From Ulva prolifera (Eukaryota; Chlorophyta; Ulvophyceae; Ulvales; Ulvaceae): a stretch of DNA of 64,000 nucleotides. Positions 259 through 44,119 of this stretch are shown here, piece after piece. A model generated the notes under the pieces. The model ran no database searches, was not told the origin of the DNA, and saw nothing but the letters and a program-made list of their open reading frames with translations. The translations under genes were made by a program, and so were the position numbers. Location: positions 10,961,943 to 11,025,942 of the forward strand of contig CM041199.1 in assembly GCA_023078555.1 (NCBI GenBank). Direction: 5' to 3'. Each line of letters opens with the position of its first letter. Position 1 is the first letter of the stretch.

Positions 259-423
259 ATGGACTTGGCTATAGACAAGCATACCCCCGCGCACCATAGG
301 GAAGTTGCCAGAAACATCCTTTGATTCTGAAAGATCTAGGACGTCAAGTATGCATTGCACAGTTGTTGCTAACTCCTAGGAGTGGCGTGGAACAAAAGTG
401 CACACTTTTCACCAACCATGTGA
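259..423 (+). repeat. Type A monomer (representative, 165 bp)
   Basis: A is the most diverged type and opens every subunit. It shares its first 10 bases and its last ~50 bases with B. The middle can be aligned to B but differs at many positions, with CTATAGACAAGC, ACCATAGGG, a BglII site (AGATCT, 332-337) and GACGTC. It has three main subtypes at one site: ACTCCTAGGAGT (here), ACTCCCAGGAGT and ACTCCCAAGAGT. There are 79 A monomers, 67 of them before 44 kb. A is almost always followed by a monomer with GCAGCAAAAGG or GAAGCAAAAGG instead of the usual GCATCAAAAGG. Confidence 0.95.
372..383. other. Perfect 12-bp palindrome ACTCCTAGGAGT in some A monomers
   Basis: It is present in A monomers that open subunits 5a, 4b and 4c and in several domain II A monomers. 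It contains an AvrII site. The other A forms have CCCAGG or CCCAAG. Confidence 0.85.
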
Positions 424-561
424 ATGGACTTGGTTGTAGCCACGCAACCCCCCGCGCAGCAAAAGGTACGTTGCCATCAACATTCAAAAGATGTTGGGGG
501 GTATGGGATGTCCATCATTCATTGCGTATTTTCTGCAGACACCATGGAGTGGTGTGATGCA

Positions 562-575
562 AAAGTGTACACTTT
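562..575. other. Perfect 14-bp palindrome AAAGTGTACACTTT
   Basis: This occurs in the subset of C monomers with GTGTACAC, mostly the C right after A in subunits 4a, 5a, 5b and 4c. It is one C to T away from the common dyad and creates a BsrGI site. Confidence 0.85.
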
Positions 576-614
576 CCACCAACCCATGTGAATGGACTTG
601 GTTGTAGCCACGCA

Positions 615-669
615 ACCCCCCGCGCATCAAAAGGTACATCGCCATCAACATTCCAAGATGTTGGGGGGT
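615..669. other. C-tract and G-tract inverted repeat (7-bp arms)
   Basis: ACCCCCC (615-621) and GGGGGGT (663-669) are 41 bp apart in most C and D monomers. B monomers with TTAGGGGG or TTGGAGGG, and E, have shorter or broken pairing. Long spacing and loss in B make a structural role uncertain. Confidence 0.5.
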
Positions 670-705
670 ATGGGATGTCCATCATTCATTGCGTATTTTC
701 TGCAG

Positions 706-722
706 ACACCATGGAGTGGTGT
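706..722. other. Inverted repeat in C monomers (6-bp arms, 5-nt loop)
   Basis: ACACCA and TGGTGT flank TGGAG. The arms stay complementary when the loop is TGGCG, as in many domain II Cs. In A and B the same place holds a different dyad, ACTCC-CA-GGAGT. Confidence 0.8.
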
Positions 723-748
723 GGTGCAAAAGTGCACACTTTCCACCA
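722..748. other. Imperfect hairpin in C monomers
   Basis: TGGTG pairs with CACCA and AAAGTG pairs with CACTTT. A 2x1 internal loop separates the two stems and CA is the turn. The outer stem is lost in GTAATGC and GTGATGC forms; the inner stem remains. Formation in vivo is not shown. Confidence 0.65.
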
Positions 749-872
749 ACCCATGTGAATGGACTTGGTTGTAGCCACGCAACCCCCCGCGCATCAAAAG
801 GTACGTCGCCATGAACATTCCAAGATGTTAGGGGGTATGGGATGATTATCATTCATTGCATATTTGCTGCTG

Positions 873-884
873 ACTCCCAGGAGT
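873..884. other. Near-palindrome ACTCC-CA-GGAGT in A and B monomers
   Basis: Two 5-bp arms flank CA. In A monomers with CCTAGG a single C to T makes a perfect 12-bp palindrome, ACTCCTAGGAGT. Confidence 0.8.
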
Positions 885-894
885 GGCGTGGGGC

Positions 895-910
895 AAAAGT
901 GCACACTTTT
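895..910. other. Dyad AAAAGTG-CA-CACTTTT found in nearly all monomers
   Basis: Two 7-bp arms flank CA in A and B (6-bp arms in C, D and E). It recurs about once per 166 bp. Exceptions seen are AAAAATGCACAC (for example 44951) and GTGCACATTTTCC (before every E). Confidence 0.85.
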
Positions 911-1090
911 CACCAACCATGTGAATGGACTTGGTTGTAGCCACGCAACCCCCCGCGCATCAAAAGGTACGTCGCCATGAACATTCCAAGATGTTGGAGG
1001 GTATGGGATGATTATCATTCATTGCATATTTGCTGCTGACTCCCAGGAGTGGCGTGGGGCAAAAGTGCACACTTTTCACCAACCTTGTGA

Positions 1091-1421
1091 ATGGACTTGG
1101 CTATAGACAAGCATACCCCCGCGCACCATAGGGAAGTTGCCAGAAACATCCTTTGATTCTGAAAGATCTAGGACGTCAAGTATGCATTGCACAGTTGTTG
1201 CTAACTCCCAAGAGTGGCGTGGAACAAAAGTGCACACTTTTCACCAACCATGTGAATGGACTTGGTTGTAGCCACGCAACCCCCCGCGCAGCAAAAGGTA
1301 CGTCGCCATGAACATTCCAAGATGTTGGGGGGTATGGGATGATTATCATTCATTGCATATTTGCTGCTGACTCCCAGGAGTGGCGTGGGGCAAAAGTGCA
1401 CACTTTTCACCAACCATGTGA
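1091..1421 (+). repeat. Subunit 2 (dimer, 331 bp): A-B
   Basis: This is an A with CCCAAG followed by a B that carries the post-A mark GCAGCAAAAGG and TTGGGGGG. Copies start at 1091, 5246, 9402, 14886, 36651, 38645 and 39473. The copy at 5246 has ACTCGAAAGAGT where the others have ACTCCCAAGAGT, a private change in one array copy. Confidence 0.92.
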
Positions 1422-2086
1422 ATGGACTTGGCTATAGACAAGCATACCCCCGCGCACCATAGGGAAGTTGCCAGAAACATCCTTTGATTCTGAAAGATCT
1501 AGGACGTCAAGTATGCATTGCACAGTTGTTGCTAACTCCCAGGAGTGGCGTGGAACAAAAGTGCACACTTTTCACCAACCATGTGAATGGACTTGGTTGT
1601 AGCCACGCAACCCCCCGCGCAGCAAAAGGTACGTTGCCATCAACATTCCAAGATGTTGGGGGGTATGGGATGTCCATCATTCATTGCGTATTTTCTGCAG
1701 ACACCATGGAGTGGTGTGGTGCAAAAGTGTACACTTTCCACCAACCCATGTGAATGGACTTGGTTGTAGCCACGCAACCCCCCGCGCATCAAAAGGTACA
1801 TCGCCATCAACATTCCAAGATGTTGGGGGGTATGGGATGTCCATCATTCATTGCGTATTTTCTGCAGACACCATGGAGTGGTGTAATGCAAAAGTGCACA
1901 CTTTCCACCAACCCATGTGAATGGACTTGGTTGTAGCCACGCAACCCCCCGCGCATGAAAAGGTACGTCGCCATGAACATTCCAAGATGTTGGGGGGTAT
2001 GGGATGATTATCATTCATTGCATATTTGCTGCTGACTCCCAGGAGTGGCGTGGGGCAAAAGTGCACACTTTTCACCAACCATGTGA
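1422..2086 (+). repeat. Subunit 4a (4 monomers, 665 bp): A-C-C-B
   Basis: The order is A with CCCAGG, a C with TACGTTGCC and the GTGTACAC palindrome, a C with TACATCGCC and GTAATGC, and a B with GCATGAAAAGG and TTGGGGGG. Copies start at 1422, 2918, 5577, 9733, 15217 and 39804. The copies at 9733 and 15217 share GCGTGTTTTC, which marks them as sister copies within the 33-mer. Confidence 0.92.
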
Positions 2087-2917
2087 ATGGACTTGGCTAT
2101 AGACAAGCATACCCCCGCGCACCATAGGGAAGTTGCCAGAAACATCCTTTGATTCTGAAAGATCTAGGACGTCAAGTATGCATTGCACAGTTGTTGCTAA
2201 CTCCCAGGAGTGGCGTGGAACAAAAGTGCACACTTTTCACCAACCATGTGAATGGACTTGGTTGTAGCCACGCAACCCCCCGCGCAGCAAAAGGTACGTT
2301 GCCATCAACATTCCAAGATGTTGGGGGGTATGGGATGTCCATCATTCATTGCGTATTTTCTGCAGACACCATGGAGTGGTGTGATGCAAAAGTGTACACT
2401 TTCCACCAACCCATGTGAATGGACTTGGTTGTAGCCACGCAACCCCCCGCGCATCAAAAGGTACATCGCCATCAACATTCCAAGACGTTGGGGGGTATGG
2501 GATGTCCATCATTCATTGCGTATTTTCTGCAGACACCATGGAGTGGTGTGGTGCAAAAGTGCACACTTTCCACCAACCCATGTGAATGGACTTGGTTGTA
2601 GCCACGCAACCCCCCGCGCATCAAAAGGTACGTCGCCATGAACATTCCAAGATGTTAGGGGGTATGGGATGATTATCATTCATTGCATATTTGCTGCTGA
2701 CTCCCAGGAGTGGCGTGGGGCAAAAGTGCACACTTTTCACCAACCATGTGAATGGACTTGGTTGTAGCCACGCAACCCCCCGCGCATCAAAAGGTACGTC
2801 GCCATGAACATTCCAAGATGTTGGAGGGTATGGGATGATTATCATTCATTGCACATTTGCTGCTGACTCCCAGGAGTGGCGTGGGGCAAAAGTGCACACT
2901 TTTCACCAACCTTGTGA
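2087..2917 (+). repeat. Subunit 5b (5 monomers, 831 bp): A-C-C-B-B
   Basis: The order is A with CCCAGG, a C with GTGATGC and GTGTACAC, a C with TACATCGCC and AAGACGTTGG, then two Bs. AAGACGTTGG is diagnostic. Copies start at 2087, 3583, 6242, 7739, 10398, 15882, 26182, 30833, 34988 and 36982. In the copies at 26182 and 30833 the two Bs carry GCATTTTTGC and GATAATC, which otherwise mark subunit 5c, so these are recombinant 5b/5c units. Confidence 0.92.
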
Positions 2918-4413
2918 ATGGACTTGGCTATAGACAAGCATACCCCCGCGCACCATAGGGAAGTTGCCAGAAACATCCTTTGATTCTGAAAGATCTAGGA
3001 CGTCAAGTATGCATTGCACAGTTGTTGCTAACTCCCAGGAGTGGCGTGGAACAAAAGTGCACACTTTTCACCAACCATGTGAATGGACTTGGTTGTAGCC
3101 ACGCAACCCCCCGCGCAGCAAAAGGTACGTTGCCATCAACATTCCAAGATGTTGGGGGGTATGGGATGTCCATCATTCATTGCGTATTTTCTGCAGACAC
3201 CATGGAGTGGTGTGGTGCAAAAGTGTACACTTTCCACCAACCCATGTGAATGGACTTGGTTGTTGCCACGCAACCCCCCGCGCATCAAAAGGTACATCGC
3301 CATCAACATTCCAAGATGTTGGGGGGTATGGGATGTCCATCATTCATTGCGTATTTTCTGCAGACACCATGGAGTGGTGTAATGCAAAAGTGCACACTTT
3401 CCACCAACCCATGTAAATGGACTTGGTTGTAGCCACGCAACCCCCCGCGCATGAAAAGGTACGTCGCCATGAACATTCCAAGATGTTGGGGGGTATGGGA
3501 TGATTATCATTCATTGCATATTTGCTGCTGACTCCCAGGAGTGGCGTGGGGCAAAAGTGCACACTTTTCACCAACCATGTGAATGGACTTGGCTATAGAC
3601 AAGCATACCCCCGCGCACCATAGGGAAGTTGCCAGAAACATCCTTTGATTCTGAAAGATCTAGGACGTCAAGTATGCATTGCACAGTTGTTGCTAACTCC
3701 CAGGAGTGGCGTGGAACAAAAGTGCACACTTTTCACCAACCATGTGAATGGACTTGGTTGTAGCCACGCAACCCCCCGCGCAGCAAAAGGTACGTTGCCA
3801 TCAACATTCCAAGATGTTGGGGGGTATGGGATGTCCATCATTCATTGCGTATTTTCTGCAGACACCATGGAGTGGTGTGATGCAAAAGTGTACACTTTCC
3901 ACCAACCCATGTGAATGGACTTGGTTGTAGCCACGCAACCCCCCGCGCATCAAAAGGTACATCGCCATCAACATTCCAAGACGTTGGGGGGTATGGGATG
4001 TCCATCATTCATTGCGTATTTTCTGCAGACACCATGGAGTGGTGTGGTGCAAAAGTGCACACTTTCCACCAACCCATGTGAATGGACTTGGTTGTAGCCA
4101 CGCAACCCCCCGCGCATCAAAAGGTACGTCGCCATGAACATTCCAAGATGTTAGGGGGTATGGGATGATTATCATTCATTGCATATTTGCTGCTGACTCC
4201 CAGGAGTGGCGTGGGGCAAAAGTGCACACTTTTCACCAACCATGTGAATGGACTTGGTTGTAGCCACGCAACCCCCCGCGCATCAAAAGGTACGTCGCCA
4301 TGAACATTCCAAGATGTTGGAGGGTATGGGATGATTCTCATTCATTGCACATTTGCTGCTGACTCCCAGGAGTGGCGTGGGGCAAAAGTGCACACTTTTC
4401 ACCAACCTTGTGA

Positions 4414-7400
4414 ATGGACTTGGCTATAGACAAGCATACCCCCGCGCACCATAGGGAAGTTGCCAGAAACATCCTTTGATTCTGAAAGATCTAGGACGTC
4501 AAGTATGCATTGCACAGTTGTTGCTAACTCCTAGGAGTGGCGTGGAACAAAAGTGCACACTTTTCACCAACCATGTGAATGGACTTGGTTGTAGCCACGC
4601 AACCCCCCGCGCAGCAAAAGGTACGTTGCCATCAACATTCAAAAGATGTTGGGGGGTATGGGATGTCCATCATTCATTGCGTATTTTCTGCAGACACCAT
4701 GGAGTGGTGTGATGCAAAAGTGTACACTTTCCACCAACCCATGTGAATGGACTTGGTTGTAGCCACGCAACCCCCCGCGCATCAAAAGGTACATCGCCAT
4801 CAACATTCCAAGATGTTGGGGGGTATGGGATGTCCATCATTCATTGCGTATTTTCTGCAGACACCATGGAGTGGTGTGGTGCAAAAGTGCACACTTTCCA
4901 CCAACCCATGTGAATGGACTTGGTTGTAGCCACGCAACCCCCCGCGCATCAAAAGGTACGTCGCCATGAACATTCCAAGATGTTAGGGGGTATGGGATGA
5001 TTATCATTCATTGCATATTTGCTGCTGACTCCCAGGAGTGGCGTGGGGCAAAAGTGCACACTTTTCACCAACCATGTGAATGGACTTGGTTGTAGCCACG
5101 CAACCCCCCGCGCATCAAAAGGTACGTCGCCATGAACATTCCAAGATGTTGGAGGGTATGGGATGATTATCATTCATTGCATATTTGCTGCTGACTCCCA
5201 GGAGTGGCGTGGGGCAAAAGTGCACACTTTTCACCAACCTTGTGAATGGACTTGGCTATAGACAAGCATACCCCCGCGCACCATAGGGAAGTTGCCAGAA
5301 ACATCCTTTGATTCTGAAAGATCTAGGACGTCAAGTATGCATTGCACAGTTGTTGCTAACTCGAAAGAGTGGCGTGGAACAAAAGTGCACACTTTTCACC
5401 AACCATGTGAATGGACTTGGTTGTAGCCACGCAACCCCCCGCGCAGCAAAAGGTACGTCGCCATGAACATTCCAAGATGTTGGGGGGTATGGGATGATTA
5501 TCATTCATTGCATATTTGCTGCTGACTCCCAGGAGTGGCGTGGGGCAAAAGTGCACACTTTTCACCAACCATGTGAATGGACTTGGCTATAGACAAGCAT
5601 ACCCCCGCGCACCATAGGGAAGTTGCCAGAAACATCCTTTGATTCTGAAAGATCTAGGACGTCAAGTATGCATTGCACAGTTGTTGCTAACTCCCAGGAG
5701 TGGCGTGGAACAAAAGTGCACACTTTTCACCAACCATGTGAATGGACTTGGTTGTAGCCACGCAACCCCCCGCGCAGCAAAAGGTACGTTGCCATCAACA
5801 TTCCAAGATGTTGGGGGGTATGGGATGTCCATCATTCATTGCGTATTTTCTGCAGACACCATGGAGTGGTGTGGTGCAAAAGTGTACACTTTCCACCAAC
5901 CCATGTGAATGGACTTGGTTGTAGCCACGCAACCCCCCGCGCATCAAAAGGTACATCGCCATCAACATTCCAAGATGTTGGGGGGTATGGGATGTCCATC
6001 ATTCATTGCGTATTTTCTGCAGACACCATGGAGTGGTGTAATGCAAAAGTGCACACTTTCCACCAACCCATGTGAATGGACTTGGTTGTAGCCACGCAAC
6101 CCCCCGCGCATGAAAAGGTACGTCGCCATGAACATTCCAAGATGTTGGGGGGTATGGGATGATTATCATTCATTGCATATTTGCTGCTGACTCCCAGGAG
6201 TGGCGTGGGGCAAAAGTGCACACTTTTCACCAACCATGTGAATGGACTTGGCTATAGACAAGCATACCCCCGCGCACCATAGGGAAGTTGCCAGAAACAT
6301 CCTTTGATTCTGAAAGATCTAGGACGTCAAGTATGCATTGCACAGTTGTTGCTAACTCCCAGGAGTGGCGTGGAACAAAAGTGCACACTTTTCACCAACC
6401 ATGTGAATGGACTTGGTTGTAGCCACGCAACCCCCCGCGCAGCAAAAGGTACGTTGCCATCAACATTCCAAGATGTTGGGGGGTATGGGATGTCCATCAT
6501 TCATTGCGTATTTTCTGCAGACACCATGGAGTGGTGTGATGCAAAAGTGTACACTTTCCACCAACCCATGTGAATGGACTTGGTTGTAGCCACGCAACCC
6601 CCCGCGCATCAAAAGGTACATCGCCATCAACATTCCAAGACGTTGGGGGGTATGGGATGTCCATCATTCATTGCGTATTTTCTGCAGACACCATGGAGTG
6701 GTGTGGTGCAAAAGTGCACACTTTCCACCAACCCATGTGAATGGACTTGGTTGTAGCCACGCAACCCCCCGCGCATCAAAAGGTACGTCGCCATGAACAT
6801 TCCAAGATGTTAGGGGGTATGGGATGATTATCATTCATTGCATATTTGCTGCTGACTCCCAGGAGTGGCGTGGGGCAAAAGTGCACACTTTTCACCAACC
6901 ATGTGAATGGACTTGGTTGTAGCCACGCAACCCCCCGCGCATCAAAAGGTACGTCGCCATGAACATTCCAAGATGTTGGAGGGTATGGGATGATTATCAT
7001 TCATTGCACATTTGCTGCTGACTCCCAGGAGTGGCGTGGGGCAAAAGTGCACACTTTTCACCAACCTTGTGAATGGACTTGGCTATAGACAAGCATACCC
7101 CCGCGCACCATAGGGAAGTTGCCAGAAACATCCTTTGATTCTGAAAGATCTAGGACGTCAAGTATGCATTGCACAGTTGTTGCTAACTCCTAGGAGTGGC
7201 GTGGAACAAAAGTGCACACTTTTCACCAACCATGTGAATGGACTTGGTTGTAGCCACGCAACCCCCCGCGCAGCAAAAGGTACGTTGCCATCAACATTCA
7301 AAAGATGTTGGGGGGTATGGGATGTCCATCATTCATTGCGTATTTTCTGCAGACACCATGGAGTGGTGTGATGCAAAAGTGTACACTTTCCACCAACCCA

Positions 7401-8569
7401 TGTGAATGGACTTGGTTGTAGCCACGCAACCCCCCGCGCATCAAAAGGTACATCGCCATCAACATTCCAAGATGTTGGGGGGTATGGGATGTCCATCATT
7501 CATTGCGTATTTTCTGCAGACACCATGGAGTGGTGTGGTGCAAAAGTGCACACTTTCCACCAACCCATGTGAATGGACTTGGTTGTAGCCACGCAACCCC
7601 CCGCGCATCAAAAGGTACGTCGCCATGAACATTCCAAGATGTTAGGGGGTATGGGATGATTATCATTCATTGCATATTTGCTGCTGACTCCCAGGAGTGG
7701 CGTGGGGCAAAAGTGCACACTTTTCACCAACCATGTGAATGGACTTGGCTATAGACAAGCATACCCCCGCGCACCATAGGGAAGTTGCCAGAAACATCCT
7801 TTGATTCTGAAAGATCTAGGACGTCAAGTATGCATTGCACAGTTGTTGCTAACTCCCAGGAGTGGCGTGGAACAAAAGTGCACACTTTTCACCAACCATG
7901 TGAATGGACTTGGTTGTAGCCACGCAACCCCCCGCGCAGCAAAAGGTACGTTGCCATCAACATTCCAAGATGTTGGGGGGTATGGGATGTCCATCATTCA
8001 TTGCGTATTTTCTGCAGACACCATGGAGTGGTGTGATGCAAAAGTGTACACTTTCCACCAACCCATGTGAATGGACTTGGTTGTAGCCACGCAACCCCCC
8101 GCGCATCAAAAGGTACATCGCCATCAACATTCCAAGACGTTGGGGGGTATGGGATGTCCATCATTCATTGCGTATTTTCTGCAGACACCATGGAGTGGTG
8201 TGGTGCAAAAGTGCACACTTTCCACCAACCCATGTGAATGGACTTGGTTGTAGCCACGCAACCCCCCGCGCATCAAAAGGTACGTCGCCATGAACATTCC
8301 AAGATGTTAGGGGGTATGGGATGATTATCATTCATTGCATATTTGCTGCTGACTCCCAGGAGTGGCGTGGGGCAAAAGTGCACACTTTTCACCAACCATG
8401 TGAATGGACTTGGTTGTAGCCACGCAACCCCCCGCGCATCAAAAGGTACGTCGCCATGAACATTCCAAGATGTTGGAGGGTATGGGATGATTATCATTCA
8501 TTGCACATTTGCTGCTGACTCCCAGGAGTGGCGTGGGGCAAAAGTGCACACTTTTCACCAACCTTGTGA
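4414..8569 (+). repeat. 25-mer higher-order repeat, copy 2 (4,156 bp)
   Basis: The subunit order is 5a-2-4a-5b-4b-5b, with A monomers at 4414, 5246, 5577, 6242, 7073 and 7739. It differs from copy 1 in the fifth subunit (4b, 666 bp, for 4a, 665 bp) and in the private ACTCGAAAGAGT site of the A at 5246. Confidence 0.9.
7073..7738 (+). repeat. Subunit 4b (4 monomers, 666 bp): 5a lacking one B
   Basis: It has A with CCTAGG, the 168-bp C, a C with TACATCGCC and one B with TTAGGGGG. This is subunit 5a without one of its two B monomers (832 minus 166). The other copy is at 34322. The same four subunits follow in both places, giving matching 2,660-bp stretches at 7073-9732 and 34322-36981. Confidence 0.9.
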
Positions 8570-11500
8570 ATGGACTTGGCTATAGACAAGCATACCCCCG
8601 CGCACCATAGGGAAGTTGCCAGAAACATCCTTTGATTCTGAAAGATCTAGGACGTCAAGTATGCATTGCACAGTTGTTGCTAATTCCTAGGAGTGGCGTT
8701 GAACAAAAGTGCACACTTTTCACCAACCATGTGAATGGACTTGGTTGTAGCCACGCAACCCCCCGCGCAGCAAAAGGTACGTTGCCATCAACATTCAAAA
8801 GATGTTGGGGGGTATGGGATGTCCATCATTCATTGCGTATTTTCTGCAGACACCATGGAGTGGTGTGATGCAAAAGTGTACACTTTCCACCAACCCATGT
8901 GAATGGACTTGGTTGTAGCCACGCAACCCCCCGCGCATCAAAAGGTACATCGCCATCAACATTCCAAGATGTTGGGGGGTATGGGATGTCCATCATTCAT
9001 TGCGTATTTTCTGCAGACACCATGGAGTGGTGTGGTGCAAAAGTGCACACTTTCCACCAACCCATGTGAATGGACTTGGTTGTAGCCACGCAACCCCCCG
9101 CGCATCAAAAGGTACGTCGCCATGAACATTCCAAGATGTTAGGGGGTATGGGATGATTATCATTCATTGCATATTTGCTGCTGACTCCCAGGAGTGGCGT
9201 GGGGCAAAAGTGCACACTTTTCACCAACCATGTGAATGGACTTGGTTGTAGCCACGCAACCCCCCGCGCATCAAAAGGTACGTCGCCATGAACATTCCAA
9301 GATGTTGGAGGGTATGGGATGATTATCATTCATTGCACATTTGCTGCTGACTCCCAGGAGTGGCGTGGGGCAAAAGTGCACACTTTTCACCAACCTTGTG
9401 AATGGACTTGGCTATAGACAAGCATACCCCCGCGCACCATAGGGAAGTTGCCAGAAACATCCTTTGATTCTGAAAGATCTAGGACGTCAAGTATGCATTG
9501 CACAGTTGTTGCTAACTCCCAAGAGTGGCGTGGAACAAAAGTGCACACTTTTCACCAACCATGTAAATGGACTTGGTTGTAGCCACGCAACCCCCCGCGC
9601 AGCAAAAGGTACGTCGCCATGAACATTCCAAGATGTTGGGGGGTATGGGATGATTATCATTCATTGCATATTTGCTGCTGACTCCCAGGAGTGGCGTGGG
9701 GCAAAAGTGCACACTTTTCACCAACCATGTGAATGGACTTGGCTATAGACAAGCATACCCCCGCGCACCATAGGGAAGTTGCCAGAAACATCCTTTGATT
9801 CTGAAAGATCTAGGACGTCAAGTATGCATTGCACAGTTGTTGCTAACTCCCAGGAGTGGCGTGGAACAAAAGTGCACACTTTTCACCAACCATGTGAATG
9901 GACTTGGTTGTAGCCACGCAACCCCCCGCGCAGCAAAAGGTACGTTGCCATCAACATTCCAAGATGTTGGGGGGTATGGGATGTCCATCATTCATTGCGT
10001 ATTTTCTGCAGACACCATGGAGTGGTGTGGTGCAAAAGTGTACACTTTCCACCAACCCATGTGAATGGACTTGGTTGTAGCCACGCAACCCCCCGCGCAT
10101 CAAAAGGTACATCGCCATCAACATTCCAAGATGTTGGGGGGTATGGGATGTCCATCATTCATTGCGTGTTTTCTGCAGACACCATGGAGTGGTGTAATGC
10201 AAAAGTGCACACTTTCCACCAACCCATGTGAATGGACTTGGTTGTAGCCACGCAACCCCCCGCGCATGAAAAGGTACGTCGCCATGAACATTCCAAGATG
10301 TTGGGGGGTATGGGATGATTATCATTCATTGCATATTTGCTGCTGACTCCCAGGAGTGGCGTGGGGCAAAAGTGCACACTTTTCACCAACCATGTGAATG
10401 GACTTGGCTATAGACAAGCATACCCCCGCGCACCATAGGGAAGTTGCCAGAAACATCCTTTGATTCTGAAAGATCTAGGACGTCAAGTATGCATTGCACA
10501 GTTGTTGCTAACTCCCAGGAGTGGCGTGGAACAAAAGTGCACACTTTTCACCAACCATGTGAATGGACTTGGTTGTAGCCACGCAACCCCCCGCGCAGCA
10601 AAAGGTACGTTGCCATCAACATTCCAAGATGTTGGGGGGTATGGGATGTCCATCATTCATTGCGTATTTTCTGCAGACACCATGGAGTGGTGTGATGCAA
10701 AAGTGTACACTTTCCACCAACCCATGTGAATGGACTTGGTTGTAGCCACGCAACCCCCCGCGCATCAAAAGGTACATCGCCATCAACATTCCAAGACGTT
10801 GGGGGGTATGGGATGTCCATCATTCATTGCGTATTTTCTGCAGACACCATGGAGTGGTGTGGTGCAAAAGTGCACACTTTCCACCAACCCATGTGAATGG
10901 ACTTGGTTGTAGCCACGCAACCCCCCGCGCATCAAAAGGTACGTCGCCATGAACATTCCAAGATGTTAGGGGGTATGGGATGATTATCATTCATTGCATA
11001 TTTGCTGCTGACTCCCAGGAGTGGCGTGGGGCAAAAGTGCACACTTTTCACCAACCATGTGAATGGACTTGGTTGTAGCCACGCAACCCCCCGCGCATCA
11101 AAAGGTACGTCGCCATGAACATTCCAAGATGTTGGAGGGTATGGGATGATTATCATTCATTGCACATTTGCTGCTGACTCCCAGGAGTGGCGTGGGGCAA
11201 AAGTGCACACTTTTCACCAACCTTGTGAATGGACTTGGCTATAGACAAGCATACCCCCGCGCACCATAGGGAAGTTGCCAGAAACATCCTTTGATTCTGA
11301 AAGATCTAGGACGTCAAGTATGCATTGCACAGTTGTTGCTAACTCCTAGGAGTGGCGTGGAACAAAAGTGCACACTTTTCACCAACCATGTGAATGGACT
11401 TGGTTGTAGCCACGCAACCCCCCGCGCAGCAAAAGGTACGTTGCCATCAACATTCAAAAGATGTTGGGGGGTATGGGATGTCCATCATTCATTGCGTATT

Positions 11501-12060
11501 TTCTGCAGACACCATGGAGTGGTGTGATGCAAAAGTGTACACTTTCCACCAACCCATGTGAATGGACTTGGTTGTAGCCACGCAACCCCCCGCGCATCAA
11601 AAGGTACATCGCCATCAACATTCCAAGATGTTGGGGGGTATGGGATGTCCATCATTCATTGCGTATTTTCTGCAGACACCATGGAGTGGTGTGGTGCAAA
11701 AGTGCACACTTTCCACCAACCCATGTGAATGGACTTGGTTGTAGCCACGCAACCCCCCGCGCATCAAAAGGTACGTCGCCATGAACATTCCAAGATGTTA
11801 GGGGGTATGGGATGATTATCATTCATTGCATATTTGCTGCTGACTCCCAGGAGTGGCGTGGGGCAAAAGTGCACACTTTTCACCAACCATGTGAATGGAC
11901 TTGGTTGTAGCCACGCAACCCCCCGCGCATGAAAAGGTATGTCGCCATGAACATTCCAAGATGTTGGAGGGTATGGGATGATTATCATTCATTGCACATT
12001 TGCTGCTGACTCCCAGGAGTGGCGTGGGGCAAAAGTGCACACTTTTCACCAACCTTGTGA

Positions 12061-31663: not shown

Positions 31664-34321
31664 ATGGACTTGGCTATAGACAAGCATACCCCCGCGCACC
31701 ATAGGGAAGTTGCCAGAAACATCCTTTGATTCTGAAAGATCTAGGACGTCAAGTATGCATTGCACAGTTGTTGCTAACTCCTAGGAGTGGCGTGGAACAA
31801 AAGTGCACACTTTTCACCAACCATGTGAATGGACTTGGTTGTAGCCACGCAACCCCCCGCGCAGCAAAAGGTACGTTGCCATCAACATTCAAAAGATGTT
31901 GGGGGGTATGGGATGTCCATCATTCATTGCGTATTTTCTGCAGACACCATGGAGTGGTGTGATGCAAAAGTGTACACTTTCCACCAACCCATGTGAATGG
32001 ACTTGGTTGTAGCCACGCAACCCCCCGCGCATCAAAAGGTACATCGCCATCAACATTCCAAGATGTTGGGGGGTATGGGATGTCCATCATTCATTGCGTA
32101 TTTTCTGCAGACACCATGGAGTGGTGTGGTGCAAAAGTGCACACTTTCCACCAACCCATGTGAATGGACTTGGTTGTAGCCACGCAACCCCCCGCGCATC
32201 AAAAGGTACGTCGCCATGAACATTCCAAGATGTTAGGGGGTATGGGATGATTATCATTCATTGCATATTTGCTGCTGACTCCCAGGAGTGGCGTGGGGCA
32301 AAAGTGCACACTTTTCACCAACCATGTGAATGGACTTGGTTGTAGCCACGCAACCCCCCGCGCATCAAAAGGTACGTCGCCATGAACATTCCAAGATGTT
32401 GGAGGGTATGGGATGATTATCATTCATTGCACATTTGCTGCTGACTCCCAGGAGTGGCGTGGGGCAAAAGTGCACACTTTTCACCAACCTTGTGAATGGA
32501 CTTGGCTATAGACAAGCATACCCCCGCGCACCATAGGGAAGTTGCCAGAAACATCCTTTGATTCTGAAAGATCTAGGACGTCAAGTATGCATTGCACAGT
32601 TGTTGCTAACTCCTAGGAGTGGCGTGGAACAAAAGTGCACACTTTTCACCAACCATGTGAATGGACTTGGTTGTAGCCACGCAACCCCCCGCGAAGCAAA
32701 AGGTACGTCGCCATGAACATTCAAAGATGTTGGGGGGTATGGGATGTCCATCATCCATTGCGTATTTTCTGCAGACACCATGGAGTGGTGTGGTGCAAAA
32801 GTGTACACTTTCCACCAACCCATGTGAATGGACTTGGTTGTAGCCACGCAACCCCCTGCGCATCAAAAGGTACGTCCCCATGAACATTCCAAGATGTTGG
32901 GGGTATGGGATGTCCATCATCCATTGCGTATTTTCTGCAGACACCATGGAGTGGTGTGGTGCAAAAGTGCACACTTTCCACCAACCCATGTGAATGGACT
33001 TGGTTGTAGCCACGCAACCCCCCGCGCATCAAAAGGTACGTCGCCATGAACATTCCAAGATGTTGGAGGGTATGGGATGATTATCATTCATTGCATATTT
33101 GCTGCTGACTCCCAGGAGTGGCGTGGGGCAAAAGTGCACACTTTTCACCAACCTTGTGAATGGACTTGGCTATAGACAAGCATACCCCCGCGCACCATAG
33201 GGAAGTTGCCAGAAACATCCTTTGATTCTGAAAGATCTAGGACGTCAAGTATGCATTGCACAGTTGTTGCTAACTCCCAAGAGTGGCGTGGAACAAAAGT
33301 GCACACTTTTCACCAACCATGTGAATGGACTTGGTTGTAGCCACGCAACCCCCCGCGCAGCAAAAGGTACGTCGCCATCAACATTCCAAGATGTTGGAGG
33401 GTATGGGATGTCCATCATTCATTGCGTATTTTCTGCAGACACCATGGAGTGGTGTAATGCAAAAGTGCACACTTTCCACCAACCCATGTGAATGGACTTG
33501 GTTGTAGCCACGCAACCCCCCGCGCATGAAAAGGTGCGTCGCCATGAACATTCCAAGATGTTGGGGGGTATGGGATGATTATCATTCATTGCATATTTGC
33601 TGCTGACTCCCAGGAGTGGCGTGGGGCAAAAGTGCACACTTTTCACCAACCTTGTGAATGGACTTGGCTATAGACAAGCATACCCCCGCGCACCATAGAG
33701 AAGTTGCCAGAAACATCCTTTGATTCTGAAAGATCTAGGACGTCAAGTATGCATTGCACAGTTGTTGCTAACTCCCAGGAGTGGCGTGGAACAAAAGTGC
33801 ACACTTTTCACCAACCATGTGAATGGACTTGGTTGTAGCCACGCAACCCCCCGCGCAGCAAAAGGTACGTTGCCATCAACATTCAAAGATGTTGGGGGGT
33901 ATGAGATGTCCATCATTCATTGCGTATTTTCTGCAGACACCATGGAGTGGTGTAATGCAAAAGTGCACACTTTCCACCAACCCATGTGAATGGACTTGGT
34001 TGTAGCCACGCAACCCCCCGCGCATCAAAAGGTACGTCGCCATGAACATTCCAAGATGTTAGGGGGTATGGGATGATTATCATTCATTGCATATTTGCTG
34101 CTGACTCCCAGGAGTGGCGTGGGGCAAAAGTGCACACTTTTCACCAACCATGTGAATGGACTTGGTTGTAGCCACGCAACCCCCCGCGCATCAAAAGGTA
34201 CGTCGCCATGAACATTCCAAGATGTTGGAGGGTATGGGATGATTATCATTCATTGCACATTTGCTGCTGACTCCCAGGAGTGGCGTGGGGCAAAAGTGCA
34301 CACTTTTCACCAACCTTGTGA
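31664..34321 (+). repeat. 28-mer higher-order repeat, truncated copy 3 (2,658 bp)
   Basis: The order is 5a-4c-3-4d, with A monomers at 31664, 32496, 33160 and 33658. These are the first 16 of 28 monomers. At 34322 the expected 4c is replaced by 4b, so the 28-mer order stops at a recombination junction between two similar CCTAGG-type A subunits. Confidence 0.9.
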
Positions 34322-34987
34322 ATGGACTTGGCTATAGACAAGCATACCCCCGCGCACCATAGGGAAGTTGCCAGAAACATCCTTTGATTCTGAAAGATCT
34401 AGGACGTCAAGTATGCATTGCACAGTTGTTGCTAACTCCTAGGAGTGGCGTGGAACAAAAGTGCACACTTTTCACCAACCATGTGAATGGACTTGGTTGT
34501 AGCCACGCAACCCCCCGCGCAGCAAAAGGTACGTTGCCATCAACATTCAAAAGATGTTGGGGGGTATGGGATGTCCATCATCCATTGCGTATTTTCTGCA
34601 GACACCATGGAGTGGTGTGATGCAAAAGTGTACACTTTCCACCAACCCATGTGAATGGACTTGGTTGTAGCCACGCAACCCCCCGCGCATCAAAAGGTAC
34701 ATCGCCATCAACATTCCAAGATGTTGGGGGGTATGGGATGTCCATCATTCATTGCGTATTTTCTGCAGACACCATGGAGTGGTGTGGTGCAAAAGTGCAC
34801 ACTTTCCACCAACCCATGTGAATGGACTTGGTTGTAGCCACGCAACCCCCCGCGCATCAAAAGGTACGTCGCCATGAACATTCCAAGATGTTAGGGGGTA
34901 TGGGATGATTATCATTCATTGCATATTTGCTGCTGACTCCCAGGAGTGGCGTGGGGCAAAAGTGCACACTTTTCACCAACCATGTGA
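34322..34987 (+). repeat. 4b subunit at the change from 28-mer to 12-mer
   Basis: This is A with CCTAGG, the 168-bp C (with CATCATCCATTG instead of CATCATTCATTG), a C with TACATCGCC and one B. It resembles 7073-7738 but carries the CATCC variant that marks 4c subunits. The monomer may therefore be a 4c/4b recombinant at the place where the HOR type changes. Confidence 0.85.
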
Positions 34988-36981
34988 ATGGACTTGGCTA
35001 TAGACAAGCATACCCCCGCGCACCATAGGGAAGTTGCCAGAAACATCCTTTGATTCTGAAAGATCTAGGACGTCAAGTATGCATTGCACAGTTGTTGCTA
35101 ACTCCCAGGAGTGGCGTGGAACAAAAGTGCACACTTTTCACCAACCATGTGAATGGACTTGGTTGTAGCCACGCAACCCCCCGCGCAGCAAAAGGTACGT
35201 TGCCATCAACATTCCAAGATGTTGGGGGGTATGGGATGTCCATCATTCATTGCGTATTTTCTGCAGACACCATGGAGTGGTGTGATGCAAAAGTGTACAC
35301 TTTCCACCAACCCATGTGAATGGACTTGGTTGTAGCCACGCAACCCCCCGCGCATCAAAAGGTACATCGCCATCAACATTCCAAGACGTTGGGGGGTATG
35401 GGATGTCCATCATTCATTGCGTATTTTCTGCAGACACCATGGAGTGGTGTGGTGCAAAAGTGCACACTTTCCACCAACCCATGTGAATGGACTTGGTTGT
35501 AGCCACGCAACCCCCCGCGCATCAAAAGGTACGTCGCCATGAACATTCCAAGATGTTAGGGGGTATGGGATGATTATCATTCATTGCATATTTGCTGCTG
35601 ACTCCCAGGAGTGGCGTGGGGCAAAAGTGCACACTTTTCACCAACCATGTGAATGGACTTGGTTGTAGCCACGCAACCCCCCGCGCATCAAAAGGTACGT
35701 CGCCATGAACATTCCAAGATGTTGGAGGGTATGGGATGATTATCATTCATTGCACATTTGCTGCTGACTCCCAGGAGTGGCGTGGGGCAAAAGTGCACAC
35801 TTTTCACCAACCTTGTGAATGGACTTGGCTATAGACAAGCATACCCCCGCGCACCATAGGGAAGTTGCCAGAAACATCCTTTGATTCTGAAAGATCTAGG
35901 ACGTCAAGTATGCATTGCACAGTTGTTGCTAACTCCTAGGAGTGGCGTGGAACAAAAGTGCACACTTTTCACCAACCATGTGAATGGACTTGGTTGTAGC
36001 CACGCAACCCCCCGCGCAGCAAAAGGTACGTTGCCATCAACATTCAAAAGATGTTGGGGGGTATGGGATGTCCATCATTCATTGCGTATTTTCTGCAGAC
36101 ACCATGGAGTGGTGTGATGCAAAAGTGTACACTTTCCACCAACCCATGTGAATGGACTTGGTTGTAGCCACGCAACCCCCCGCGCATCAAAAGGTACATC
36201 GCCATCAACATTCCAAGATGTTGGGGGGTATGGGATGTCCATCATTCATTGCGTATTTTCTGCAGACACCATGGAGTGGTGTGGTGCAAAAGTGCACACT
36301 TTCCACCAACCCATGTGAATGGACTTGGTTGTAGCCACGCAACCCCCCGCGCATCAAAAGGTACGTCGCCATGAACATTCCAAGATGTTAGGGGGTATGG
36401 GATGATTATCATTCATTGCATATTTGCTGCTGACTCCCAGGAGTGGCGTGGGGCAAAAGTGCACACTTTTCACCAACCATGTGAATGGACTTGGTTGTAG
36501 CCACGCAACCCCCCGCGCATCAAAAGGTACGTCGCCATGAACATTCCAAGATGTTGGAGGGTATGGGATGATTATCATTCATTGCACATTTGCTGCTGAC
36601 TCCCAGGAGTGGCGTGGGGCAAAAGTGCACACTTTTCACCAACCTTGTGAATGGACTTGGCTATAGACAAGCATACCCCCGCGCACCATAGGGAAGTTGC
36701 CAGAAACATCCTTTGATTCTGAAAGATCTAGGACGTCAAGTATGCATTGCACAGTTGTTGCTAACTCCCAAGAGTGGCGTGGAACAAAAGTGCACACTTT
36801 TCACCAACCATGTGAATGGACTTGGTTGTAGCCACGCAACCCCCCGCGCAGCAAAAGGTACGTCGCCATGAACATTCCAAGATGTTGGGGGGTATGGGAT
36901 GATTATCATTCATTGCATATTTGCTGCTGACTCCCAGGAGTGGCGTGGGGCAAAAGTGCACACTTTTCACCAACCATGTGA
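34988..36981 (+). repeat. 12-mer higher-order repeat, copy 1 (1,994 bp)
   Basis: The order is 5b-5a-2, with A monomers at 34988, 35819 and 36651. The same 1,994-bp order is found at 7739-9732, where 4a follows. Here it is followed directly by a second 12-mer copy. Confidence 0.9.
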
Positions 36982-38975
36982 ATGGACTTGGCTATAGACA
37001 AGCATACCCCCGCGCACCATAGGGAAGTTGCCAGAAACATCCTTTGATTCTGAAAGATCTAGGACGTCAAGTATGCATTGCACAGTTGTTGCTAACTCCC
37101 AGGAGTGGCGTGGAACAAAAGTGCACACTTTTCACCAACCATGTGAATGGACTTGGTTGTAGCCACGCAACCCCCCGCGCAGCAAAAGGTACGTTGCCAT
37201 CAACATTCCAAGATGTTGGGGGGTATGGGATGTCCATCATTCATTGCGTATTTTCTGCAGACACCATGGAGTGGTGTGATGCAAAAGTGTACACTTTCCA
37301 CCAACCCATGTGAATGGACTTGGTTGTAGCCACGCAACCCCCCGCGCATCAAAAGGTACATCGCCATCAACATTCCAAGACGTTGGGGGGTATGGGATGT
37401 CCATCATTCATTGCGTATTTTCTGCAGACACCATGGAGTGGTGTGGTGCAAAAGTGCACACTTTCCACCAACCCATGTGAATGGATTTGGTTGTAGCCAC
37501 GCAACCCCCCGCGCATCAAAAGGTACGTCGCCATGAACATTCCAAGATGTTAGGGGGTATGGGATGATTATCATTCATTGCATATTTGCTGCTGACTCCC
37601 AGGAGTGGCGTGGGGCAAAAGTGCACACTTTTCACCAACCATGTGAATGGACTTGGTTGTAGCCACGCAACCCCCCGCGCATCAAAAGGTACGTCGCCAT
37701 GAACATTCCAAGATGTTGGAGGGTATGGGATGATTATCATTCATTGCACATTTGCTGCTGACTCCCAGGAGTGGCGTGGGGCAAAAGTGCACACTTTTCA
37801 CCAACCTTGTGAATGGACTTGGCTATAGACAAGCATACCCCCGCGCACCATAGGGAAGTTGCCAGAAACATCCTTTGATTCTGAAAGATCTAGGACGTCA
37901 AGTATGCATTGCACAGTTGTTGCTAACTCCTAGGAGTGGCGTGGAACAAAAGTGCACACTTTTCACCAACCATGTGAATGGACTTGGTTGTAGCCACGCA
38001 ACCCCCCGCGCAGCAAAAGGTACGTTGCCATCAACATTCAAAAGATGTTGGGGGGTATGGGATGTCCATCATTCATTGCGTATTTTCTGCAGACACCATG
38101 GAGTGGTGTGATGCAAAAGTGTACACTTTCCACCAACCCATGTGAATGGACTTGGTTGTAGCCACGCAACCCCCCGCGCATCAAAAGGTACATCGCCATC
38201 AACATTCCAAGATGTTGGGGGGTATGGGATGTCCATCATTCATTGCGTATTTTCTGCAGACACCATGGAGTGGTGTGGTGCAAAAGTGCACACTTTCCAC
38301 CAACCCATGTGAATGGACTTGGTTGTAGCCACGCAACCCCCCGCGCATCAAAAGGTACGTCGCCATGAACATTCCAAGATGTTAGGGGGTATGGGATGAT
38401 TATCATTCATTGCATATTTGCTGCTGACTCCCAGGAGTGGCGTGGGGCAAAAGTGCACACTTTTCACCAACCATGTGAATGGACTTGGTTGTAGCCACGC
38501 AACCCCCCGCGCATCAAAAGGTACGTCGCCATGAACATTCCAAGATGTTGGAGGGTATGGGATGATTATCATTCATTGCACATTTGCTGCTGACTCCCAG
38601 GAGTGGCGTGGGGCAAAAGTGCACACTTTTCACCAACCTTGTGAATGGACTTGGCTATAGACAAGCATACCCCCGCGCACCATAGGGAAGTTGCCAGAAA
38701 CATCCTTTGATTCTGAAAGATCTAGGACGTCAAGTATGCATTGCACAGTTGTTGCTAACTCCCAAGAGTGGCGTGGAACAAAAGTGCACACTTTTCACCA
38801 ACCATGTGAATGGACTTGGTTGTAGCCACGCAACCCCCCGCGCAGCAAAAGGTACGTCGCCATGAACATTCCAAGATGTTGGGGGGTATGGGATGATTAT
38901 CATTCATTGCATATTTGCTGCTGACTCCCAGGAGTGGCGTGGGGCAAAAGTGCACACTTTTCACCAACCATGTGA
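36982..38975 (+). repeat. 12-mer higher-order repeat, copy 2 (1,994 bp)
   Basis: The order is 5b-5a-2, with A monomers at 36982, 37813 and 38645. The length is identical to the preceding copy. A private change is ATGGATTTGG near 37486. The 4a subunit that follows the dimer elsewhere in the array is missing at the join between the two copies. Confidence 0.9.
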
Positions 38976-39472
38976 ATGGACTTGGCTATAGACAAGCATA
39001 CCCCCGCGCACCATAGGGAAGTTGCCAGAAACATCCTTTGATTCTGAAAGATCTAGGACGTCAAGTATGCATTGCACAGTTGTTGCTAACTCCCAGGAGT
39101 GGCGTGGAACAAAAGTGCACACTTTTCACCAACCATGTGAATGGACTTGGTTGTAGCCACGCAACCCCCGCGCAGCAAAAGGTACGTTGCCATCAACATT
39201 CCAAGATGTTGGGGGGTATGGGATGTCCATCATTCATTGCGTATTTTCTGCAGACACCATGGAGTGGTGTGGTGCAAAAGTGTACACTTTCCACCAACCC
39301 ATGTGAATGGACTTGGTTGTAGCCACGCAACCCCCCGCGCATCAAAAGGTACATCGCCATCAACATTCCAAGATGTTGGGGGGTATGGGATGATTATCAT
39401 TCATTGCATATTTTCTGCTGACTCCCAGGAGTGGCGTGGGGCAAAAGTGCACACTTTTCACCAACCATGTGA
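38976..39472 (+). repeat. Irregular trimer with chimeric third monomer (497 bp)
   Basis: The order is A, a C whose C-tract has five instead of six Cs (near 39168), then a chimeric C/B monomer. It resembles subunit 4a with about one monomer lost by exchange inside the third monomer. Confidence 0.85.
39307..39472 (+). repeat. Chimeric monomer: C 5' half, B 3' half
   Basis: The 5' half has TACATCGCCATCAACATTCC as in C. The 3' half has GATTATCATTC and GCTGACTCCC as in B. The switch lies between about 39370 and 39392, in the shared GATGTTGGGGGGTATGGGAT tract. It fits unequal crossing-over between adjacent C and B monomers. Confidence 0.85.
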
Positions 39473-40468
39473 ATGGACTTGGCTATAGACAAGCATACCC
39501 CCGCGCACCATAGGGAAGTTGCCAGAAACATCCTTTGATTCTGAAAGATCTAGGACGTCAAGTATGCATTGCACAGTTGTTGCTAACTCCCAAGAGTGGC
39601 GTGGAACAAAAGTGCACACTTTTCACCAACCATGTGAATGGACTTGGTTGTAGCCACGCAACCCCCCGCGCAGCAAAAGGTACGTCGCCATGAACATTCC
39701 AAGATGTTGGGGGGTATGGGATGATTATCATTCATTGCATATTTGCTGCTGACTCCCAGGAGTGGCGTGGGGCAAAAGTGCACACTTTTCACCAACCATG
39801 TGAATGGACTTGGCTATAGACAAGCATACCCCCGCGCACCATAGGGAAGTTGCCAGAAACATCCTTTGATTCTGAAAGATCTAGGACGTCAAGTATGCAT
39901 TGCACAGTTGTTGCTAACTCCCAGGAGTGGCGTGGAACAAAAGTGCACACTTTTCACCAACCATGTGAATGGACTTGGTTGTAGCCACGCAACCCCCCGC
40001 GCAGCAAAAGGTACGTTGCCATCAACATTCCAAGATGTTGGGGGGTATGGGATGTCCATCATTCATTGCGTATTTTCTGCAGACACCATGGAGTGGTGTG
40101 GTGCAAAAGTGTACACTTTCCACCAACCCATGTGAATGGACTTGGTTGTAGCCACGCAACCCCCCGCGCATCAAAAGGTACATCGCCATCAACATTCCAA
40201 GATGTTGGGGGGTATGGGATGTCCATCATTCATTGCGTATTTTCTGCAGACACCATGGAGTGGTGTAATGCAGAAGTGCACACTTTCCACCAACCCATGT
40301 GAATGGACTTGGTTGTAGCCACGCAACCCCCCGCGCATGAAAAGGTACGTCGCCATGAACATTCCAAGATGTTGGGGGGTATGGGATGATTATCATTCAT
40401 TGCATATTTGCTGCTGACTCCCAGGAGTGGCGTGGGGCAAAAGTGCACACTTTTCACCAACCATGTGA
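39473..40468 (+). repeat. Subunits 2 and 4a (996 bp)
   Basis: A dimer (A at 39473) is followed by a 4a subunit (A at 39804), as at 1091-2086, 5246-6241 and 9402-10397. A private change is GCAGAAGTG near 40271. Confidence 0.88.
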
Positions 40469-40799
40469 ATGGACTTGGCTATAGACAAGCATACCCCCGC
40501 GCACCATAGGGAAGTTGCCAGAAACATCCTTTGATTCTGAAAGATCTAGGACGTCAAGTATGCATTGCACAGTTGTTGCTGACTCCCAGGAGTGGCGTGG
40601 GGCAAAAGTGCACACTTTTCACCAACCATGTGAATGGACTTGGTTGTAGCCACGCAACCCCCCGCGCATCAAAAGGTACGTCGCCATGAACATTCCAAGA
40701 TGTTGGAGGGTATGGGATGATTATCATTCATTGCACATTTGCTGCTGACTCCCAGGAGTGGCGTGGGGCAAAAGTGCACACTTTTCACCAACCTTGTGA
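40469..40799 (+). repeat. A/B chimeric monomer plus B: HOR junction
   Basis: The monomer starting at 40469 is A up to AGTTGTTGCT (about 40580) and B from GACTCCC and GTGGGGC onward. It is followed by GCATCAAAAGG instead of the post-A mark GCAGCAAAAGG. The next monomer is the TTGGAGGG B that ends subunit 5a. To the left the array runs in 25-mer and 33-mer style; to the right it runs as a 28-mer. I read this as the scar of an unequal exchange between an A and a B monomer. Confidence 0.88.
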
Positions 40800-43787
40800 A
40801 TGGACTTGGCTATAGACAAGCATACCCCCGCGCACCATAGAGAAGTTGCCAGAAACATCCTTTGATTCTGAAAGATCTAGGACGTCAAGTATGCATTGCA
40901 CAGTTGTTGCTAACTCCTAGGAGTGGCGTGGAACAAAAGTGCACACTTTTCACCAACCATGTGAATGGACTTGGTTGTAGCCACGCAACCCCCCGCGAAG
41001 CAAAAGGTACGTCGCCATGAACATTCAAAGATGTTGGGGGGTATGGGATGTCCATCATCCATTGCGTATTTTCTGCAGACACCATGGAGTGGTGTGGTGC
41101 AAAAGTGTACACTTTCCACCAACCCATGTGAATGGACTTGGTTGTAGCCACGCAACCCCCTGCGCATCAAAAGGTACGTCCCCATGAACATTCCAAGATG
41201 TTGGGGGTATGGGATGTCCATCATCCATTGCGTATTTTCTGCAGACACCATGGAGTGGTGTGGTGCAATAGTGCACACTTTCCACCAACCCATGTGAATG
41301 GACTTGGTTGTAGCCACGCAACCCCCCGCGCATCAAAAGGTACGTCGCCATGAACATTCCAAGATGTTGGAGGGTATGGGATGATTATCATTCATTGCAT
41401 ATTTGCTGCTGACTCCCAGGAGTGGCGTGGGGCAAAAGTGCACACTTTTCACCAACCTTGTGAATGGACTTGGCTATAGACAAGCATACCCCCGCGCACC
41501 ATAGGGAAGTTGCCAGAAACATCCTTTGATTCTGAAAGATCTAGGACGTCAAGTATGCATTGCACAGTTGTTGCTAACTCCCAAGAGTGGCGTGGAACAA
41601 AAGTGCACACTTTTCACCAACCATGTGAATGGACTTGGTTGTAGCCACGCAACCCCCCGCGCAGCAAAAGGTACGTCGCCATCAACATTCCAAGATGTTG
41701 GAGGGTATGGGATGTCCATCATTCATTGCGTATTTTCTGCAGACACCATGGAGTGGTGTAATGCAAAAGTGCACACTTTCCACCAACCCATGTGAATGGA
41801 CTTGGTTGTAGCCACGCAACCCCCCGCGCATGAAAAGGTGCGTCGCCATGAACATTCCAAGATGTTGGGGGGTATGGGATGATTATCATTCATTGCATAT
41901 TTTCTGCTGACTCCCAGGAGTGGCGTGGGGCAAAAGTGCACACTTTTCACCAACCTTGTGAATGGACTTGGCTATAGACAAGCATACCCCCGCGCACCAT
42001 AGAGAAGTTGCCAGAAACATCCTTTGATTCTGAAAGATCTAGGACGTCAAGTATGCATTGCACAGTTGTTGCTAACTCCCAGGAGTGGCGTGGAACAAAA
42101 GTGCACACTTTTCACCAACCATGTGAATGGACTTGGTTGTAGCCACGCAACCCCCCGCGCAGCAAAAGGTACGTTGCCATCAACATTCAAAGATGTTGGG
42201 GGGTATGAGATGTCCATCATTCATTGCGTATTTTCTGCAGACACCATGGAGTGGTGTAATGCAAAAGTGCACACTTTCCACCAACCCATGTGAATGGACT
42301 TGGTTGTAGCCACGCAACCCCCCGCGCATCAAAAGGTACGTCGCCATGAACATTCCAAGATGTTAGGGGGTATGGGATGATTATCATTCATTGCATATTT
42401 GCTGCTGACTCCCAGGAGTGGCGTGGGGCAAAAGTGCACACTTTTCACCAACCATGTGAATGGACTTGGTTGTAGCCACGCAACCCCCCGCGCATCAAAA
42501 GGTACGTCGCCATGAACATTCCAAGATGTTGGAGGGTATGGGATGATTATCATTCATTGCACATTTGCTGCTGACTCCCAGGAGTGGCGTGGGGCAAAAG
42601 TGCACACTTTTCACCAACCTTGTGAATGGACTTGGCTATAGACAAGCATACCCCCGCGCACCATAGGGAAGTTGCCAGAAACATCCTTTGATTCTGAAAG
42701 ATCTAGGACGTCAAGTATGCATTGCACAGTTGTTGCTAACTCCTAGGAGTGGCGTGGAACAAAAGTGCACACTTTTCACCAACCATGTGAATGGACTTGG
42801 TTGTAGCCACGCAACCCCCCGCGAAGCAAAAGGTACGTCGCCATGAACATTCAAAGATGTTGGGGGGTATGGGATGTCCATCATCCATTGCGTATTTTCT
42901 GCAGACACCATGGAGTGGTGTGGTGCAAAAGTGTACACTTTCCACCAACCCATGTGAATGGACTTGGTTGTAGCCACGCAACCCCCTGCGCATCAAAAGG
43001 TACGTCCCCATGAACATTCCAAGATGTTGGGGGTATGGGATGTCCATCATCCATTGCGTATTTTCTGCAGACACCATGGAGTGGTGTGGTGCAAAAGTGC
43101 ACACTTTCCACCAACCCATGTGAATGGACTTGGTTGTAGCCACGCAACCCCCCGCGCATCAAAAGGTACGTCGCCATGAACATTCCAAGATGTTGGAGGG
43201 TATGGGATGATTATCATTCATTGCATATTTGCTGCTGACTCCCAGGAGTGGCGTGGGGCAAAAGTGCACACTTTTCACCAACCTTGTGAATGGACTTGGC
43301 TATAGACAAGCATACCCCCGCGCACCATAGGGAAGTTGCCAGAAACATCCTTTGATTCTGAAAGATCTAGGACGTCAAGTATGCATTGCACAGTTGTTGC
43401 TAACTCCCAAGAGTGGCGTGGAACAAAAGTGCACACTTTTCACCAACCATGTGAATGGACTTGGTTGTAGCCACGCAACCCCCCGCGCAGCAAAAGGTAC
43501 GTCGCCATCAACATTCCAAGATGTTGGAGGGTATGGGATGTCCATCATTCATTGCGTATTTTCTGCAGACACCATGGAGTGGTGTAATGCAAAAGTGCAC
43601 ACATTCCACCAACCCATGTGAATGGACTTGGTTGTAGCCACGCAACCCCCCGCGCATGAAAAGGTGCGTCGCCATGAACATTCCAAGATGTTGGGGGGTA
43701 TGGGATGATTATCATTCATTGCATATTTGCTGCTGACTCCCAGGAGTGGCGTGGGGCAAAAGTGCACACTTTTCACCAACCTTGTGA
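40800..43787 (+). repeat. Partial 28-mer copy 4 (2,988 bp)
   Basis: The order is 4c-3-4d-4c-3, with A monomers at 40800, 41464, 41962, 42626 and 43290. This matches 18 consecutive monomers of the 28-mer (23194-26181) in order and length, including CCATAGAGAAG in the A monomers at 40800 and 41962. Private changes are GCAATAGTG near 41269, GCATATTTTC near 41898 and ACACATTCC near 43602. It lies about 6.5 kb from the end of the third copy. Confidence 0.9.
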
Positions 43788-44119
43788 ATGGACTTGGCTA
43801 TAGACAAGCATACCCCCGCGCACCATAGGGAAGTTGCCAGAAACATCCTTTGATTCTGAAAGATCTAGGACGTCAAGTATGCATTGCACAGTTGTTGCTA
43901 ACTCCCAGGAGTGGCGTGGAACAAAAGTGCACACTTTTCACCAACCATGTGAATGGACTTGGTTGTAGCCACGCAACCCCCCGCGCAGCAAAAGGTACGT
44001 TGCCATCAACATTCAAAGATGTTGGGGGGTATGAGATGTCCATCATTCATTGCGTATTTTCTGCAGACACCATGGAGTGGTGTAATGCAAAAGTGCACAC
44101 TTTCCACCAACCCATGTGA

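Follow-up and report, generated by a model that had tools for sequence, protein, structure and literature searches.

We show that a 64-kb stretch of contig C4 (C4:10961943–11025942, the whole of it hereafter the window; C4 is 11,183,602 bp long), in a green-lineage genome of 88.9 Mb in 44 contigs, is a single head-to-tail satellite with a unit of ∼166 bp. This satellite is organized on two real levels: monomers form subunits, each opened by one monomer of class A, and the subunits form higher-order repeats (HORs). A size rule of 2–5 monomers per subunit is local, not array-wide; a weaker rule, no A beside another A, holds throughout the sequence read. Between the first satellite anchor and the contig end C4 spans 1.09 Mb, of which the sequence read covers the window, the 10.08–10.28 Mb region (with ∼174 kb of satellite), eight loci of 3.7 kb each and the terminal 2 kb. 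The organization probably arose (probability about 0.77) by identity-dependent, in-register unequal exchange that started from a founder whose units each had a single A.

From the window 384 complete monomers (165–168 bp) were cut, and these were assigned to classes Y (160 monomers), Z (118), A (79), D (24) and E (3). The 79 class A monomers diverged by 20–33% from each other class and by ≤3.6% among themselves; clustering thus separated A, as an initial annotation of this DNA had proposed. The BglII site (AGATCT) was present 79 times in the window, every time in A and at a single offset, and the predicted specificity of BglII for this class held for 79/79 sites. The first A monomer of domain I (259..423; coordinates are those of the window, and all features lie on its forward strand) bears the site. 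A 16-bp dyad, AAAAGTGCACACTTTT, was observed in the 3′ part of monomers: it was found in 196 of the 197 A and Z monomers, in 2 of the 160 Y monomers and in no D (0/24) or E (0/3) monomer.

Domain I (259..43787) consists of 66 A-opened subunits with 262 monomers. The A-to-A intervals (n = 66) measured 5 monomers in 25 cases, 4 in 22, 3 in 11 and 2 in 8, corresponding to 331 bp (8 intervals), 497 (1), 498 (10), 664 (14), 665 (6), 666 (2), 831 (14) and 832 bp (11). In a subunit A is followed by 0–2 Y-class and then by 1–2 Z-class monomers, with a Z|Y chimera at a Y place in three of them, and the class strings were AYYZZ (22 subunits), AYYZ (18), AYZ (11), AZ (8), AYZZ (4) and AYEZZ (3). Average-linkage clustering with cut-offs of 4, 5 or 6 edits gave 11 clusters: 64 of the subunits fell into nine recurring types and the other two stood alone as singletons; ten recurring types were obtained at 3 edits and eight at 7 and 9 edits. 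The interval sizes, the nine types and, taken as a whole, the observation made in the initial annotation were therefore reproduced. Its statement that chimeric monomers occupy the two leftover subunits needs an addition. Both singletons do hold one (39307..39472 and 40469..40633), and a third chimera that the annotation had not mentioned, E1 (three copies, one at 13555..13721), lies within a recurring type, where a Z|Y joint occupies a Y place.

The 66 subunits represent just 31 distinct sequences. When the monomers were shuffled at random 5000 times, no order gave solely intervals of 2–5 monomers; this null ignores block copying. With only nine types, and with copying ignored by the shuffles, the independent evidence for the size rule is far smaller than this figure.

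The order of the subunits, which starts 5a 2a 4b 5a 4b 5a 5a 2a 4b 5a 4d 5a 5a 2a 4b 5a 5a 4a 3a 5b, was parsed into 18 Lempel-Ziv (LZ) phrases (mean of 28.8 and minimum of 24 in 2000 shuffles). Type 3a was preceded by 4a in 10/10 cases and 4a was followed by 3a in 10/10, as anticipated for the 3-monomer subunit. The parallel claim, that the 2-monomer subunit always follows 5a, was true for 6 of the 7 copies of the recurring 2a and was overstated as a constant; the chimeric 2b comes after 4b.

The best lags by segment were 25, 17 and 28 monomers, and the same subunit types build all three. The 25-monomer regime (259..12724) comprises three copies with pairwise identities of 99.69, 97.11 and 96.90%, the end of the third copy having another subunit order. 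The 17-monomer regime (11229..22361) has the unit 5a-4a-3a-5b (copies at 11229–14053, 16713–19536 and 19537–22361) and is broken by one 5a-2a-4b-5a stretch; its copies are 99.93, 99.97 and, from a shorter comparison, 99.36% identical. In the 28-monomer regime (22362..35483) identities reached 99.97, 99.18 and 100%, with positions 24356–29006 and 29007–33657 being identical across 4,651 bp, and the longest exact repeat of the window (5,974 bp) starts at 23074 and 27725. The mixed tail of domain I (35061..43787) has no clean HOR period. Copies of a unit resembled each other much more closely than did the monomer classes inside it, the property that defines a higher-order repeat satellite. Class A recurred within one HOR copy (4 times in the 17-mer, 6 in the 25-mer and 7 in the 28-mer) and bounded the subfragments, with 66/66 subunits running from A to A, as is characteristic of cascading HORs.

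The size rule stops at the edge of domain I. Domain II (43788..63907), which makes up the rest of the window, is built of the same satellite with class D included, and its 12 A-to-A intervals span 3–30 monomers. At 10.10–10.28 Mb of the same contig 161 intervals spanned 2–33 monomers, 75 of them 2–5, and among eight loci surrounding the top matches of a single probe an 8-monomer A-to-A unit was observed in five (L001 and L005–L008) and a 7-monomer unit in L002, L003 being the window itself. The two levels claimed in the initial annotation are accordingly real, with 25-, 17- and 28-mers built from shared subunit types, but its "grammar" does not stand as an array-wide rule. Given 31 distinct sequences, 18 LZ phrases and the longer A-to-A intervals elsewhere, the grammar looks more like a local product of block copying. 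What did persist was the absence of A directly after A, in 0/239 intervals (window plus 10.10–10.28 Mb); in the latter region shuffled monomer orders averaged 25.3 such tandems and none was observed.

The lack of A-A among 239 intervals might also be read as the mark of a functional site in A, for example for a DNA-binding protein, with selection holding A single and 2–5 monomers apart. The uniformity of A within the window (≤3.6%) and the perfect dyad in A and Z (196/197, vs. 2/160 in Y) would fit such a site. However, low divergence is equally expected from recent copying, the dyad is common to Z and hence not specific to A, and outside domain I the spacing ranges over 3–30 and 2–33 monomers. 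Since spacing is free elsewhere in the array, we rank a selected, spaced A below identity-dependent exchange and regard it as unlikely.

We infer the exchange mechanism as well as the nature of the founder and the dependence of exchange on identity. The founder would have consisted of a single divergent monomer, A, and of Y and Z monomers behind it. Subsequent unequal exchange would for the most part have kept to the monomer register and involved nearly identical partners. Exchanges among Y and Z monomers would alter the number of monomers per unit and leave chimeric monomers, and the chimeric monomers of the window do display breakpoints. Exchanges of A-aligned subunits would copy whole blocks, giving the 25-, 17- and 28-monomer HORs. 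A would stay single and mark the start of the unit because its divergence of 20–33% from its neighbours is too great for a lone duplication. In simulations identity-dependent exchange maintained the grammar but did not create it.

When exchange was made identity-blind (k = 0), 58/60 runs were not clean, 14 runs that lost A included, and A-A tandems appeared in most. This result bears on another account, in which a few blocks were copied very recently, the grammar arose as a side effect and A has no special role in setting exchange boundaries. The 31 distinct sequences among 66 subunits, the 18 LZ phrases and exact repeats of up to 5,974 bp are what such copying would leave. Yet A-A is also absent from the less regular 10.10–10.28 Mb region, and identity-blind exchange produced the very tandems that the array lacks; we consider this account very unlikely.

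Several results weigh against identity-dependent exchange. With random starting orders and k = 60, only 14/53 runs were free of A-A, and Z preceded A in just 37%; because the same rule failed to build the grammar from random orders, a special founder must be assumed. At k = 60 and a mean shift of 6, values of k and shift that were chosen by us and are not measured, the strict 2–5 rule was seen in 14/60, 4/60 and 13/58 runs (100, 400 and 1500 events, respectively). At 10.10–10.28 Mb Z preceded A in 117/163 cases and Y in 46/163, and 29 of the 46 Y-preceded A monomers were long variants of 181–183 bp (L022–L028, C4 ∼10.21–10.28 Mb). The one long variant inspected has a Y-like start joined out of register to A, indicating that exchange is sometimes out of register. 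Monomer A2 (8570) was not accounted for by two parents. Finally, slippage or break repair would yield the same traces.

Classical alpha-satellite HORs form dimeric or pentameric subunit families, with a subunit length fixed per family. The present satellite resembles them, as they are generally understood, in the block copying of diverged monomers and in near-identical HOR copies. It differs in that subunit length varies and monomer type A recurs within one HOR copy, whereas classical copies are described as having no repeated monomer type (PMC11050224). The alpha satellite of human chromosome 15 is described as having HOR copies that repeat a monomer type, with subfragments bounded by one type, and is termed cascading (PMC11050224). 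The two systems share the recurrence of monomer types within a HOR copy and the bounding of subfragments by one type, as well as several HOR arrays per region and a nucleosome-sized monomer. In contrast to the chromosome 15 system, sequence and host are other, one strongly diverged class opens each subunit of 2–5 monomers, and HOR length runs through 25, 17 and 28 monomers in the space of ∼35 kb. Descent from alpha satellite, which is defined by homology to the 171-bp primate monomer and by the CENP-B box, is not expected, since the genome has chlorophyll a/b antenna genes, one of which matches chlorophyll a/b-binding and light-harvesting complex II (LHCII) chains in the PDB. The names of these PDB matches place the host in the green lineage, and a genome of 88.9 Mb together with eleven histone-fold matches suggests an alga.

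In a survey of green algae (Chlorella, Chlamydomonas and Coccomyxa), every alga studied is reported to have transposon-rich centromeres, and both Chlorella genomes to have centromeres without a tandem satellite (PMC11005252). The present genome shares with the surveyed algae the green lineage and the presence of a retrotransposon, but differs in its ∼1 Mb satellite, whose centromeric role is putative. No satellite HOR in a green alga was found in the open-licence PMC literature searched. The architecture is thus known and the host unexpected, because the former matches cascading HORs while the surveyed algal centromeres are reported as transposon-rich. Nested HORs like those of human DNA, in a green-lineage genome of small size, are of interest in a group whose centromeres are reported to be rich in transposons (PMC11005252). 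Since recombinant monomers and diagnostic variants are easily read here, the array also offers a compact test case for the question of whether the units of satellite amplification are determined by divergence alone.

A centromeric role of the array is a guess and forms no part of the exchange explanation. Among eleven histone-fold matches in the genome, one H3 relative (L031 918–1763, C5 ∼7.03 Mb) carries insertions of 3 and 4 residues relative to the canonical H3 of this genome, changes that agree in position and type with those expected in CenH3; it is a CenH3 candidate by sequence. A retrotransposon interrupts the array at C4 ∼10.120–10.131 Mb, with two long open frames on the minus strand (L013 2184–9398) that match reverse transcriptase, RNase H, an integrase zinc-binding domain and a chromodomain, and was taken as Ty3-type. 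Its long terminal repeats (1,058 bp) are 99.8% identical, and a 5-bp target repeat was read by eye from the flanks; the element is very young. The CenH3-like gene and the putative Ty3-type element within the array fit a centromere and do not show one. If the array is centromeric, the young chromodomain element inside it bears on the replacement of satellites and retrotransposons at centromeres.

In alpha satellite, box-bearing and box-less monomers alternate, an analogue of the dyad pattern. A centromere-type cascading HOR in a green alga, in which monomers with a perfect dyad (A and Z) alternate with dyad-less ones (Y and D) in an ordered pattern read by a DNA-binding protein, the divergence of A setting the recombination units, appears quite unlikely as an explanation.

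The array is about a megabase long. A 20-base anchor word, searched genome-wide with ≤3 mismatches, gave 6266 forward and 4 reverse matches (1 and 4 with the backward control), and one A word, searched exactly, gave 889 forward and 0 reverse matches; among the 100 matches listed for each word, all were on C4. At the measured density 6266 copies imply 1.044 Mb, and 1.078 Mb is present from the first anchor (C4:10,095,543) to the end of C4 once the inserted element is subtracted, so that nearly all copies can sit on C4. A centromeric satellite would be expected to have an array on each chromosome, and chromosomes other than C4 may carry different satellites. The final 2 kb of C4 consists of 623 N (L043 1–623) and then of 1.4 kb of non-satellite DNA that closes the contig, so that the N run hides where the array ends on the right.

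Several matches of a 701-bp probe pair at a spacing of ∼390–393 kb (C4 ∼10.60–10.77 Mb vs. 10.99–11.16 Mb), which suggests a large duplication within the array or a false duplication of the assembly. That the regular domain itself is partly an assembly product, through false duplication of near-identical blocks, could draw on these pairs and on a contig end made of an N run plus 1.4 kb. HOR copies, however, differ in subunit order and in small changes, and the chimeric monomers are not the same from place to place, making such an artefact exceedingly improbable.

A scan of the window detected no Rfam family at or above the gathering score. Exact 27-base matching to viral contigs likewise yielded 0 matches, and the telomere patterns TTTAGGG ×4 and TTTTAGGG ×3 gave 0 matches. 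Doubled Y and A monomers (blastn, E up to 1) matched nothing in the 15.4-kb left flank or in the inserted element, and hence no origin of the satellite from that element was seen. In the left flank, ∼3 kb to the left of the first anchor, one open frame (L010 1225–2646) matches both DUF659 and hAT dimerisation.
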